A DNA stretch of 26,284 nt from a virus: the IMG/VR virus record IMGVR_UViG_3300042539_000162, positions 1 to 26,284 of that record; one strand, 5' to 3'. A program made the position numbers and the translations under genes. Shown here piece by piece: positions 17,222 to 26,284 of this stretch (positions within the stretch are counted from its first letter, which is position 1; each line of letters starts with the position of its first letter). The notes beneath the pieces are model-generated. The model ran no database searches. It was not told the DNA's origin and saw nothing but the letters and a program-made list of their open reading frames with translations.

Positions 17222-17246
17222 CAGGAACTAAATATCCCAGTTCCTG
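17222..17246. promoter_or_regulatory. 8-bp inverted repeat at the tail-operon transcription start
   Basis: CAGGAACT (17222-17229) and AGTTCCTG (17239-17246) are perfect inverted copies around a 9-nt loop. It begins within a few bases downstream of the predicted start for the promoter at 17252-17280, so on the minus strand it would be either an extreme 5' RNA stem-loop or a DNA operator. No gene is coded here. Confidence 0.6.
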
Positions 17247-17251
17247 GTGTA

Positions 17252-17280
17252 TTTATACCCTTAAATTCATTTAGTTGCAA
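17252..17280 (-). promoter_or_regulatory. Sigma70-like promoter for the tail-side operon
   Basis: On the minus strand: -35 TTGCAA (17275-17280; 4/6 to TTGACA), 17-bp spacer, -10 TATAAA (17252-17257; 5/6). It lies about 90 nt upstream of the 139-aa gene in the only sizeable gap between convergent/divergent blocks, where a new transcript is needed because the head unit is terminated at 18109-18136. The -35 hexamer is self-complementary. Confidence 0.55.
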
Positions 17281-17320: not shown

Positions 17321-17806
17321 ATGAAATTTACCATTAAGAAGGTTGACTTACGCAATGAGTCTAATAAGACCGTAATCCTATATCTTCAGAAAAAAATACT
17401 GCCTTCGGATGCTCCTTACAAACCAACTCAGGGGCATTGGTGGTTAGCTTACACAGAAGAAGGCAAGCCAGTAGCGTTTGCTGGGTTAGTCAGGTCACAA
17501 CGATTTACAGATACAGGGTATCTTTGTCGTGCAGGAGTCTTAGACGAGTACACAGGACACCGTTTGCAAAGACGCCTAATTAATGTAAGAATCCGTAAGG
17601 CCAAGGAATTAGGCTGGAATTGGATTATTACAGATACAACCGATAACCCTGCTTCATCTAACTCATTAATTAATGCTGGCTTTAAAATTTATACCCCTAG
17701 TACCCCGTGGTCGTTCAAGCACGCAATCTATTGGAAATACAGAATAGACCAGAGCGATGCCTTACAAAGACCCAAACGATCCAAGAAAAAAGCAGGCGTT
17801 GCGTAG
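17321..17806 (+). CDS. GNAT-family N-acetyltransferase-like protein
   Basis: A 161-aa protein on the opposite strand to its surroundings. The ATG at 17321 follows an excellent GGAGG (17310-17314). The frame shows the GNAT layout: N-terminal beta/alpha (FTIKKVDLRNESNKTVILYL), WWLAYTEEGKPVAFAGLV, then CRAGVLDEYTGHRLQRRLIN, equivalent to the acetyl-CoA-binding V-x-P-x-x-R-x-x-G-x-G/A motif, and DTTDNPASSNSLINAGFKIY typical of the final strands. The substrate is unknown. It overlaps the HNH gene by 50 nt. Likely an accessory (moron-type) gene. Confidence 0.82.
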   Translation: MKFTIKKVDLRNESNKTVILYLQKKILPSDAPYKPTQGHWWLAYTEEGKPVAFAGLVRSQRFTDTGYLCRAGVLDEYTGHRLQRRLINVRIRKAKELGWNWIITDTTDNPASSNSLINAGFKIYTPSTPWSFKHAIYWKYRIDQSDALQRPKRSKKKAGVA

Positions 17807-18140
17807 GGGTTCTGCCAATCATTACAAGAAAAACAAATTAAAGGTACTTATTGCTACCTACAAAAGAAAGAAAGAAGAAAGAGAAAAATGGATTGCATTT
17901 AAAGCCAGCCTAAAATGCAGTTACTGTGAACAAAACCATCCTGCTGCGCTAGACTTTCATCACGAAGACCCCAAACAAAAAGACCGAGAAGTCAGCTACT
18001 ACGTAAAAAACTACCAATACACTAGGGCGATGGAAGAAGTTAAAAAATGCCTTGTCCTATGTGCCAACTGCCATAGAATTTTGCACTTTAACGAAATTTC
18101 TAAAAGACAAAAGAAAAAGCCCCACCGAAGTGGGGCCTAA
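17757..18140 (+). CDS. HNH endonuclease
   Basis: A 127-aa protein with a basic, Lys-rich N-terminus (1-50) and an HNH domain: CSYC (C54, C57), LDFHHEDP (H68, H69), CANCHR (C102, C105, H106) and H110. The four Cys form the zinc site and the His residues the metal-dependent nuclease centre. Phage HNH proteins either act with packaging or spread as selfish nickases; no intron is seen here. The start has no strong ribosome site and lies inside the GNAT gene, so it is probably coupled. Its last nine codons are made of the minus-strand head terminator hairpin. Confidence 0.88.
   Translation: MPYKDPNDPRKKQALRRGSANHYKKNKLKVLIATYKRKKEEREKWIAFKASLKCSYCEQNHPAALDFHHEDPKQKDREVSYYVKNYQYTRAMEEVKKCLVLCANCHRILHFNEISKRQKKKPHRSGA
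18109..18136 (-). terminator. Intrinsic terminator after the major capsid gene
   Basis: Minus strand: GCCCCAC-TTCG-GTGGGGC (18119-18136), a perfect 7-bp GC-rich stem with a UUCG loop, followed by TTTTTCTTTT (18109-18118). It starts 22 nt after the coat stop. On the plus strand no T-run follows, so it is directional. It is embedded in the 3' end of the HNH reading frame. Confidence 0.9.
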
Positions 18141-21652: not shown

Positions 21653-21838
21653 TTAGTCAAAAGTCTCTTTCTTAAGCATGTCTTGTACGACCTGCTCAAC
21701 AAAAGTGTAGCCCTCAAGCCTACCCATCATCTGGCGGTATTGTTCCATATTCTTCATGGACCCCGAGATCACGAGTTGTTCCGTATCCTGCCGCATGCGG
21801 CGAATTTCGTATAGCAAGTTTTCTGTAAACTTGAGCAT
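21653..21838 (-). CDS. Small helical protein, first gene of head unit
   Basis: A 61-aa protein, MLKFTENLLYEIRRMRQDTE, then EQYRQMMGRLEGYTFVEQVV and ending KKETFD. The ATG at 21838 is preferred because GGTAGGAACC lies just upstream; an in-frame ATG at 21850 lacks a good site. It is probably all helical (two helices) and resembles small phage proteins next to head genes. It is the first product of the LexA-box promoter; role unknown. Confidence 0.72.
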   Translation of the reverse strand: MLKFTENLLYEIRRMRQDTEQLVISGSMKNMEQYRQMMGRLEGYTFVEQVVQDMLKKETFD

Positions 21839-21854
21839 GGTTCCTACCATGTTG

Positions 21855-21878
21855 CAAGAGGACTTTTAGCCCCTCTTG
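21855..21878 (-). other. Leader hairpin of the head transcript
   Basis: CAAGAGG (21855-21861) and CCTCTTG (21872-21878) are perfect inverted copies around a 10-nt loop. On the minus strand this lies about 10 nt into the predicted transcript and ends 16 nt before the 21838 ATG. No T-run follows on either strand, so it is not a terminator; RNA stabilisation or translational control is possible. Confidence 0.6.
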
Positions 21879-21887
21879 ATAGCTAGT

Positions 21888-21907
21888 TACTGTGAATATA
21901 CACAGTA
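21888..21907. promoter_or_regulatory. LexA (SOS) box-like operator
   Basis: TACTGTGAATATACACAGTA is a 20-bp near-perfect palindrome: 7-bp arms TACTGTG/CACAGTA around AATATA. It has CTGT-N8-ACAG, the LexA consensus of beta/gammaproteobacteria, with the flanking TA steps of the strong E. coli consensus. It overlaps the -10 of the promoter at 21895-21923, so a bound repressor would block RNA polymerase. A different regulator (for example a phage repressor) with the same half-site cannot be excluded. Confidence 0.65.
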
Positions 21908-21923
21908 TATTTCAAAAAATCAA
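21895..21923 (-). promoter_or_regulatory. Sigma70-like promoter of the head genes
   Basis: Minus strand: -35 TTGATT (21918-21923; 4/6 to TTGACA), 17-bp spacer, -10 TATATT (21895-21900; 5/6). It overlaps the 3' end of the 99-aa gene and the LexA-like box. It is placed to transcribe the 61-aa gene, co-chaperonin, scaffold, decoration and coat genes to the terminator at 18109. Confidence 0.65.
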
Positions 21924-24568: not shown

Positions 24569-26284
24569 TTATTTATATCTCCAATCAGGCGGCACAAAGT
24601 TTGGGCGCTCTGTAATTGACAGTTCGCCGCCTAGTTTAGCCGAGTAATCCTTTAAAAATGCGTCCACTTCATTAAAATATTTTTCGGGGCTGTTATTTCC
24701 CGTGCCTTTAATTTGTGCAACACGACTAAAACTGCCGTTTTGATCTTTTTGAAGTTCTATCGTAACATGCGGCACCCCTTTTTGGTCCCGCAAAGAAATA
24801 ATTTTTGTATTTTGTTTGGCTACGGCATTGCAATAACCAGAGCCACCCACGCAGTGACCCATAATATTACCCTCAAGACTTAACGCATCGGGAGTTTTTA
24901 CGTCCACCCATTTGTAACCTTCTCCCACTGGCAGCAGTTCTTTAGTGCCTTCAAATAATACTTTTGGTGAAAATTTGCTGGGATCACGACGTGCTGCTTC
25001 CATCCTTGCGTGCCACTGCTTGGATTTGGCAATTGCATCTGCCACACCCATGTTTTTAATGTCGTTGGGGTTGCGAGTTAACAGGTAATCACGTAATTCA
25101 ATCATGTCCAATACACCTCGTGGACCGGAATTAGTCGATGCAAATATTGGTTCCCCTTCTGCAACTGCCTTGCGTACATGTGGGGGCAGATCGGATTGAT
25201 TCATCATCCGCATTAATGCGCCTGCTTCGGATTCCTCTGCCATTTGCTTAAAGCCGGGAGCGCTGTAAAGTCTTGGATACTTTTCTAATTGTTCTGTGCT
25301 TATTCTGTTAACAGACGTCATCAGTTCAGTTGGGCTATCAGGAGATTGCTCTTTAATTTTTTTCCTAAGCGCTTTTTCCATGTTAACTAGGTAGCTGTTA
25401 GCGTTTCCTTTACCAAGCGCCTTGGCTTGTCCTTCTCCTACGTACGCATTTAAACTGATTGATGAGTCATACGCATTACGCACATTTTTTAATGCGTTTT
25501 TATCCCCTGCTTGCGCTGCGGCAAATTCGTCAGCAGACGCATATGTATAATTTGGAATTTCACCAGAAAGCATTTTTTTAAAAATTGGATCGTCTGCAGT
25601 GCCCATATCATTCATTACATAATTACGCAACTTTTTGTCTATGAATTTCACGACTTCTGCTTGCTGCGGATCAGTACGATCTAAGTCTTCTGTAAAATGG
25701 CGAACGTGAATATCAAAATTAGATAAAGGCGGTTCCTCTATAGATTTCGCACCAAGGTACACGCCACCTTTTGGTCGTACCGCAAACGCTGTACCAGGAG
25801 CCATGATCTTCTGTGCTAGGTTGCTGCCACCTTGTCCGGTACTTGCCATCGCCAAGTCTTCCAGCGCCGCTTTAGCTGTGCCTTTCACGGCTTGCCCTGC
25901 GGCGACCACGGCTCGTGGTCCGGCAGTAGGACTTAAAATTCCCGTTCCCAAGCGTGTCAAAGTTTCTGTGGTCGAGCCGGTTGGCTTGTCGGCAATGCCT
26001 AGCTCTCGAGACTTTTGAATCAGATAGTCACTGCCCCCTACAGGCTTCTCAGTCGCAAGCTTACTGCCGGTGACGTAGTCTACACCTTTTAAGCCAAGAT
26101 TGATAATGTCTACCGGAGCACCCAACAAGTCGTAAGGGGTATATTGGGTACTACGCAGGATTTCTTTAGCCGTGCCTTTTACCTTTTCGCCCATGCTGGG
26201 CTCTGGCTTTTTTTCGACTTCCCCGCCTTCTGCAAACAAAGGGGTACTGGTTCCTGCAAAGCCACTTACGTCCCCTAAGCCAAA
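24569..26284 (-). CDS. Large protein with C-terminal PcfJ-like domain, 5' truncated
   Basis: The minus-strand frame is open to the window end. The codon at 26239 is TTG and there are 15 sense codons upstream, so the true start is probably outside the window; at least 571 codons are visible. Near the visible N-terminus is FAEGGEVEKKPEPS, then an Ala/Gly-rich stretch (LTRLGTGILSPTAGPRAVVA) like phage internal proteins. The C-terminal region holds a PcfJ-like block: LEGNIMGHCVGGSGY, IISLRDQKGVPHVTIELQ, VAQIKGTGNN. Upstream of portal, it may be an internal/ejected virion protein; the role of the PcfJ-like domain is unknown. Confidence 0.8.
   Translation of the reverse strand, partial: FGLGDVSGFAGTSTPLFAEGGEVEKKPEPSMGEKVKGTAKEILRSTQYTPYDLLGAPVDIINLGLKGVDYVTGSKLATEKPVGGSDYLIQKSRELGIADKPTGSTTETLTRLGTGILSPTAGPRAVVAAGQAVKGTAKAALEDLAMASTGQGGSNLAQKIMAPGTAFAVRPKGGVYLGAKSIEEPPLSNFDIHVRHFTEDLDRTDPQQAEVVKFIDKKLRNYVMNDMGTADDPIFKKMLSGEIPNYTYASADEFAAAQAGDKNALKNVRNAYDSSISLNAYVGEGQAKALGKGNANSYLVNMEKALRKKIKEQSPDSPTELMTSVNRISTEQLEKYPRLYSAPGFKQMAEESEAGALMRMMNQSDLPPHVRKAVAEGEPIFASTNSGPRGVLDMIELRDYLLTRNPNDIKNMGVADAIAKSKQWHARMEAARRDPSKFSPKVLFEGTKELLPVGEGYKWVDVKTPDALSLEGNIMGHCVGGSGYCNAVAKQNTKIISLRDQKGVPHVTIELQKDQNGSFSRVAQIKGTGNNSPEKYFNEVDAFLKDYSAKLGGELSITERPNFVPPDWRYK

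Follow-up and report, generated by a model that had tools for sequence, protein, structure and literature searches.

A predicted RNA pseudoknot leader and a LexA-box-like inverted repeat ahead of the head genes of an uncultured HTVC023P-related phage

Introduction

Described systems resembling the locus reported here are found at the level of both transcription and translation. The LexA box of E. coli and other Gammaproteobacteria has the form CTGT-N8-ACAG. LexA acts at a late phage promoter in GIL01, a temperate phage of Bacillus thuringiensis, where promoter P3 is repressed by LexA-gp7 and the system comprises tandem boxes, the co-repressor gp7 and a LexA-like activator, gp6 (PMC6182141). 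Gene 32 of phages T4 and RB69 is repressed autogenously through a translational operator with a 5′ pseudoknot (PMC535899).

The DNA analysed here, called the window throughout, is the complete 26,284-base record of an uncultured freshwater phage, and a preliminary description had placed a LexA-box-like operator on the promoter of its head genes. The palindrome in question shares with LexA boxes the core, the flanking TA..TA, the AT-rich centre and the overlap with a -10-like element, and its matrix score is within the E. coli range; it differs in being broken in several close relatives and in lying at a putative head-morphogenesis promoter, not at that of an SOS, repressor or antirepressor gene. 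The likeness to GIL01 P3 is that of a virion-gene promoter with LexA-type boxes inside it, but the locus has a single box, and a phage LexA or S24 domain was not found. With gene 32 the locus shares a short leader pseudoknot just upstream of the ribosome-binding site, the fold being better conserved than the sequence; the pseudoknot of the window instead precedes head-morphogenesis genes, with some 4 nt between it and the predicted 5′ end, and a start-codon hairpin comes next where gene 32 has an unstructured, UUAAA-rich stretch.

Results and Discussion

Genomic context of the head operon

The portal protein of the window is 65% identical to that of Phage DSL-LC04 and 46-47% identical to those of the Pelagibacter phages HTVC023P and HTVC027P, and the phage belongs to a large, mostly uncultured, HTVC023P-related group. 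Searches of bacterial genomes for portal relatives gave one match, at 46% identity in a gammaproteobacterial MAG, from which no host call was made, and six sources contained no tRNA from which to call one. The minus-strand gap said to lie ahead of the head genes is present (21839-21919), and the co-chaperonin, scaffold and capsid unit claimed downstream of the palindrome was likewise found there, the order being a 61-aa ORF, the GroES-like gene, the scaffold-like gene, two uncharacterised ORFs and the major capsid protein gene (Table 1). The first head ORF, of 61-65 aa, directly follows the gap; its start was set by homology at the second ATG (21838) rather than at 21850, as the relatives begin MLxF.

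Two further genes may be mentioned. A PcfJ-like protein is encoded between TerL and portal (24569-26239, minus strand), and DSL-LC04 has one too. An ORF on the opposite strand among the late genes (17757-18140, plus strand) resembles an HNH-type homing endonuclease in its CxxC..H..CxxC pattern, as judged by eye, and is possibly an inserted homing gene.

Table 1. Features of the head-operon control region and neighbouring genes in the window.
Feature	Start	End	Strand	Remarks
Portal protein	22194	24566	-	phrog_1216
98-aa ORF	21920	22216	-	upstream of head promoter, downstream of portal; stop end at 21920
-35-like hexamer TTGATT	21918	21923	-	overlaps stop codon of the 98-aa ORF
Inverted repeat TACTGTG-TATATT-CACAGTA	21888	21907	.	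LexA-box-like (CTGT-N8-ACAG)
-10-like hexamer TATATT	21895	21900	-	centre of palindrome
Predicted transcription start	21888	21888	-	+/- 2 nt; 7 nt past -10
H-type RNA pseudoknot (predicted)	21855	21885	-	S1 + S2
Pseudoknot stem S1			-	UAGC (21885-21882) with GCUA (21870-21867)
Pseudoknot stem S2			-	CAAGAGGG (21878-21871) with UCCUCUUG (21862-21855)
Start-codon hairpin CAUGGU-AGGA-ACCAUG	21836	21851	-	SD-like AGGA in loop, AUG in 3′ arm
First head-operon gene	21653	21838	-	61 aa from second ATG; conserved; phrog_32603
GroES-like co-chaperonin	21182	21634	-	Pfam Cpn10, phrog_3188
Scaffold-like coiled-coil protein	20189	21172	-	phrog_28737
Major capsid protein	18158	19069	-	PF25209, phrog_371

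A conserved pseudoknot leader

Of all that is conserved here, a pseudoknot leader has the strongest support; it is the main discovery of this analysis and had been missed by the first reading of the sequence. In the window its first and third loops measure 3 nt and 4 nt, respectively, which is the usual geometry of H-type pseudoknots. When all leaders were aligned together with MAFFT, the 3′ arm of the window's clade fell out of place, and pairs were therefore not counted on that alignment; a covariance model (R1), built from 22 sequences outside the clade with only stem S2 and the start hairpin paired, was used instead. R1 recovers the window leader at 21833-21884 on the minus strand (28.9 bits, E 2.7e-5) and matches the same place in some 60 relatives, with a single copy in each of seven of the ten genomes searched and none in the other three.

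Both stems are backed by compensatory change. Seven of the eight pairs of S2 show changes on both sides, and its covariation score is 0.251, compared with 0.117 in shuffles and reached by none of 500, in an alignment that leans toward S2 by construction; pairing falls from 84% to 44% or less when the partner is slid. Stem S1, left unpaired in R1, gives a pairing score of 9.48 as against 7.09 after loops are exchanged among sequences, the highest of 2000 such exchanges reaching 8.69, and its arms are found in the compensated forms UAGC/GCUA, AGCC/GGCU, CGCC/GGCG, AACGC/GCGUU and GAGGGC/GCCCUU. Between the window and its near relative L015, S2 changes in a compensated manner from CAAGAGGG/UCCUCUUG to CAAGAAG/CUUCUUG. 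On this comparative evidence the pseudoknot is very probably real. Folding of the single leader sequence without the upstream repeat is only mildly more stable than that of shuffles (z -1.9), with a tool that cannot score pseudoknots.

The leader has the consensus (A)GCC-UU-CAGACGGU-GGCU-AAA-ACCGUCUG, and the two interleaved stems occur in all clades examined except L057, L062, L063 and L140, which have at most one simple stem. In HTVC023P, the gap before the corresponding small ORF is only 16 nt long and R1 finds no leader. We take the RNA layer to be ancient and common to the phage family at large. Neither the window nor six relatives gave an Rfam 15 hit that reached its gathering threshold, and permissive thresholds gave nothing credible; the best candidate, NsiR8, was below threshold (E 0.69) and was rejected. 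The leader appears to be an undescribed RNA family with no Rfam 15 counterpart.

The pseudoknot is followed by a hairpin, CAUGG..CCAUG, with bases resembling a Shine-Dalgarno sequence in or beside its loop. This predicted hairpin varies so little among relatives that covariation cannot serve as proof of it. With the AUG in the 3′ arm and the SD-like bases at the loop, it would form a natural translational brake. Autogenous control by a single-strand-binding protein, as at gene 32, does not fit the locus, as the first gene is the 61-aa phrog_32603 ORF and not ssb, and there are no UUAAA repeats before the start codon. In one relative, L135, a long and nearly perfect hairpin (GCCATGGTGCGGC..GCACCATGGC, -28.7 kcal/mol) lies just before the pseudoknot, and is possibly a processing site of the RNase III type.

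A probable promoter at a fixed distance from the pseudoknot

The hexamers of the sigma70-like promoter claimed in the preliminary description, with a 17-bp spacer and a -10 element overlapped by the palindrome, are present on the minus strand as TTGATT-N17-TATATT. Taken alone, such hexamers are not above chance (5 sigma70-type matches against 6.9 expected in the 6.3 kb scanned), yet here they are conserved among relatives. TTGATT is found at the same place in L015, L018, L087 and L091; the -10 hexamer reads TATAAT in L017 and clade B, and the distant L051/L060/L065 group has CATAAT in its place; and in most of clade A, TTGATT and TATAWT stand at a fixed distance from the pseudoknot. Transcription would begin 7 nt past the -10, at about 21888, so that the mRNA would start 3-4 nt before the pseudoknot, and the same arithmetic holds for the CATAAT group. 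On conservation and position, the head-operon promoter is probably genuine. No recognisable promoter or palindrome precedes the pseudoknot in L024, L025 and DSL-LC04, and since the pseudoknot lacks a recognisable promoter in many relatives, the leader can also sit in read-through mRNA.

At 17222-17280 (minus strand), a second promoter-like site, TTGCAA-N17-TATAAA, is located ahead of the next ORF and directly before a strong hairpin (CAGGAACU..AGUUCCUG, -12.4 kcal/mol); here again the predicted transcript would start with a folded structure.

Resemblance of the repeat to a LexA operator

The palindrome itself was found as previously described: 20 bp, with perfect 7-bp arms, a 6-bp centre and CTGT-N8-ACAG at 21890-21905. 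On the minus strand it is followed by ACTAGCTATCAAGAGGGGCTAAAAGTCCTCTTGCAACATGGTAGGAACCATG. Inverted repeats with arms this long are frequent in the window (26, against a mean of 11 in shuffles), which would allow for a neutral coincidence; the overlap with the -10, the retention of the palindrome in about 30 loci (many of them overlapping contigs of the same phages) and in a sister clade, and a closeness to LexA beyond that of any shuffle make coincidence very improbable. CTGT-N8-ACAG occurs three times in the window (0.47 expected), the other two sites lying inside genes; the intragenic sites of the window species were dropped as candidate operators. A CRP site was rejected, the spacing TGTG-N6-CACA being wrong.

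The palindrome departs from the E. coli LexA consensus at 3 of 20 positions, whereas the best site in each of 20 shuffles departs at 5-7. With a matrix built from 18 known E. coli LexA sites, it scores 23.3, within the range of 13.5-25.7 that 17 of these sites cover in a leave-one-out test (the 18th scored 6.2). The palindrome is also the best site of G001, a contig of 57.8 kb from the same species; the second best (17.8) is in the intergenic gap before terS, and dinucleotide shuffles predict 0.05 sites at 17.5 or above. The clade B phage G006 has a site scoring 27.8 in the gap corresponding to the terS gap and one of 16.8 at the head promoter. Further sites of this type in control regions, as sought in the scan proposed earlier, were thus found before terS in both phages, as the second-best site of G001 and the best of G006.

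These data fit a working host LexA operator, at which the head promoter, and with it the terS region, would be kept off until LexA undergoes RecA-driven self-cleavage after DNA damage, whether inflicted by the phage or otherwise, which would couple virion production to SOS; GIL01 P3 offers a precedent at a late promoter (PMC6182141). Several observations weigh against it. An equally strong match of G006 is intragenic: a near-consensus box, TACTGGATGTATATACAGTA (score 27.3), lies inside an ORF (L157:6280-6299), so strong LexA matches also arise in the coding DNA of these phages. The likeness is moreover partly expected, because a -10 box amid any CTG..CAG repeat automatically resembles the LexA core TATATATA. 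LexA and S24 domains (PF00717, PF01726) and the tyrosine integrase domain (PF00589, the only integrase type covered) were absent from G001, G006, G003, G008, G009 and DSL-LC04, of which G003 and G006 are partial contigs, with positive controls in each case. DSL-LC04 is predicted to be virulent (PMC10611076). A role of LexA would therefore concern timing within infection rather than lysogeny. The operator reading is a tentative one; its resemblance to true E. coli boxes and the second site before terS stand, while the half-sites are broken in near kin.

The site before terS is flanked by an 18-bp near-palindrome, TTGCYTAAAAAATAGGCA, in two copies in G001 (L155:13084-13143; about 47,083-47,142 of G001) and one in G006 (L156:8950-8997). 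Among IMG/VR phage contigs it has exact matches in at least 120 stretches, often in tandem, and lies within 120 bp of LexA-like boxes in L233, L308 and L228 and about 160 bp from one in L204. Its 19-bp form had no match in 185 bacterial genomes, and no mention of it was found in the literature searched.

Turnover of the repeat among relatives

Retention of the palindrome at this position is partial. It is identical within the window species, differs by one base in L015/L016, and takes the form GGCTGTG-TATAAT-CACAGTA or -CACAGTG in clade B (L019-L023, L090). In L017, L018 and L087, which in trees branch just outside the window species and L015 (the portal tree covering L087 and L017, that of the GroES region L017 and L018), the sequence is GGCTGTG-TATAWT-CATAGCC: the ACAG half-site is broken and LexA scores drop to 5.9-7.6, and all seven arm positions still pair, one of them as G-U. 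L091, L094 and L146 have a hairpin unrelated to LexA, GGCTAT-TCTG-ATAGCC, L093 has no repeat, and no further relative beyond clade B has the LexA-like box. In a distant group (L049, L051, L060, L065, L130), repeats of the type GTGCAT/ATGCAC surround CATAAT and their distance to the pseudoknot is unchanged, and other distant relatives have unrelated hairpins at the same place (GTTGAC/GTCAAC, GAAGTAA/TTACTTC) or none. With the half-site lost and the pairing retained in near kin, the inverted repeat at the -10 either predates the LexA likeness or recurs for other reasons. As far as these comparisons go, the likeness to LexA arose late and locally, as a variant of the upstream inverted repeat.

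This pattern could mean that pairing itself is selected, the repeat acting as an RNA hairpin in read-through transcripts or under a constraint tied to the leader, with the LexA match incidental. The arms co-vary (TACTGTG/CACAGTA; GGCTGTG/CATAGCC, with one G-U; GGCTAT/ATAGCC), unrelated hairpins take the same place in distant groups and in L135, and the window stretch that includes the repeat folds well as RNA (z -3.8). Among non-Watson-Crick arm pairs there are eight G-U, no A-C and four others, a suggestive pointer to RNA pairing, with arms chosen by eye and few independent haplotypes. Many relatives are without a hairpin (mean z only -1.15 at this position), a transcript from the predicted +1 would exclude the hairpin, and the two best LexA matches, at two late control gaps, are left unexplained. 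We regard selection on RNA pairing as possible but short of probable.

Alternatively, the repeat may serve as operator for a regulator encoded by the phage, or for another one of the host, with turnover from lineage to lineage. An inverted repeat covers the -10 in two distinct clades whose arm sequences differ, and DSL-LC04 is annotated with a helix-turn-helix regulator; on the other hand, the distant-type repeat occurs only once per genome tested, with no second GTGCATAATATGCAC-type copy beyond the head site, and no regulator could be linked to it. Such an operator seems unlikely.

Proposed control of the head operon

The earlier claim of a control site for the head operon is supported by its position, by conservation and by the adjoining conserved RNA leader. 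We favour, with some reserve, a model in which 21836-21923 exerts control in two layers, a promoter within an inverted repeat and a structured 5′ leader. In the first layer, a sigma70-type promoter would be shut by a DNA-binding repressor on the inverted repeat; as the -10 lies inside the repeat, a bound repressor can block it. In the window species and those nearest to it, where the repeat makes a good E. coli-type LexA box, host LexA is the foremost single candidate for this role, albeit a conjectural one. In the second layer, the pseudoknot, whose stems covary, and the ensuing hairpin with Shine-Dalgarno and start codon would most likely govern how the mRNA encoding the 61-aa protein, the co-chaperonin, the scaffold and the capsid protein is translated, how stable it is, or both. 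The pseudoknot might protect the 5′ end, gate ribosome access to the start-codon hairpin, or be the target of an autogenous repressor as in T4 gene 32 (PMC535899). A post-transcriptional action of the leader is rather likely.

It is rather doubtful, if conceivable from the sites present, that a virulent-looking aquatic lineage has put both its terS and its head regions under host LexA, with the pseudoknot as a second, translational brake. If this were true, the making of head proteins would await the damage that infection does to host DNA, and the cleavage of LexA. That one phage has LexA-like sites in two of its late control regions raises the question of whether the host SOS repressor can serve as a clock where there are no lysogeny genes. 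The pseudoknot leader, for its part, provides a concrete handle on the ratio or timing of capsid proteins in HTVC023P-related phages.
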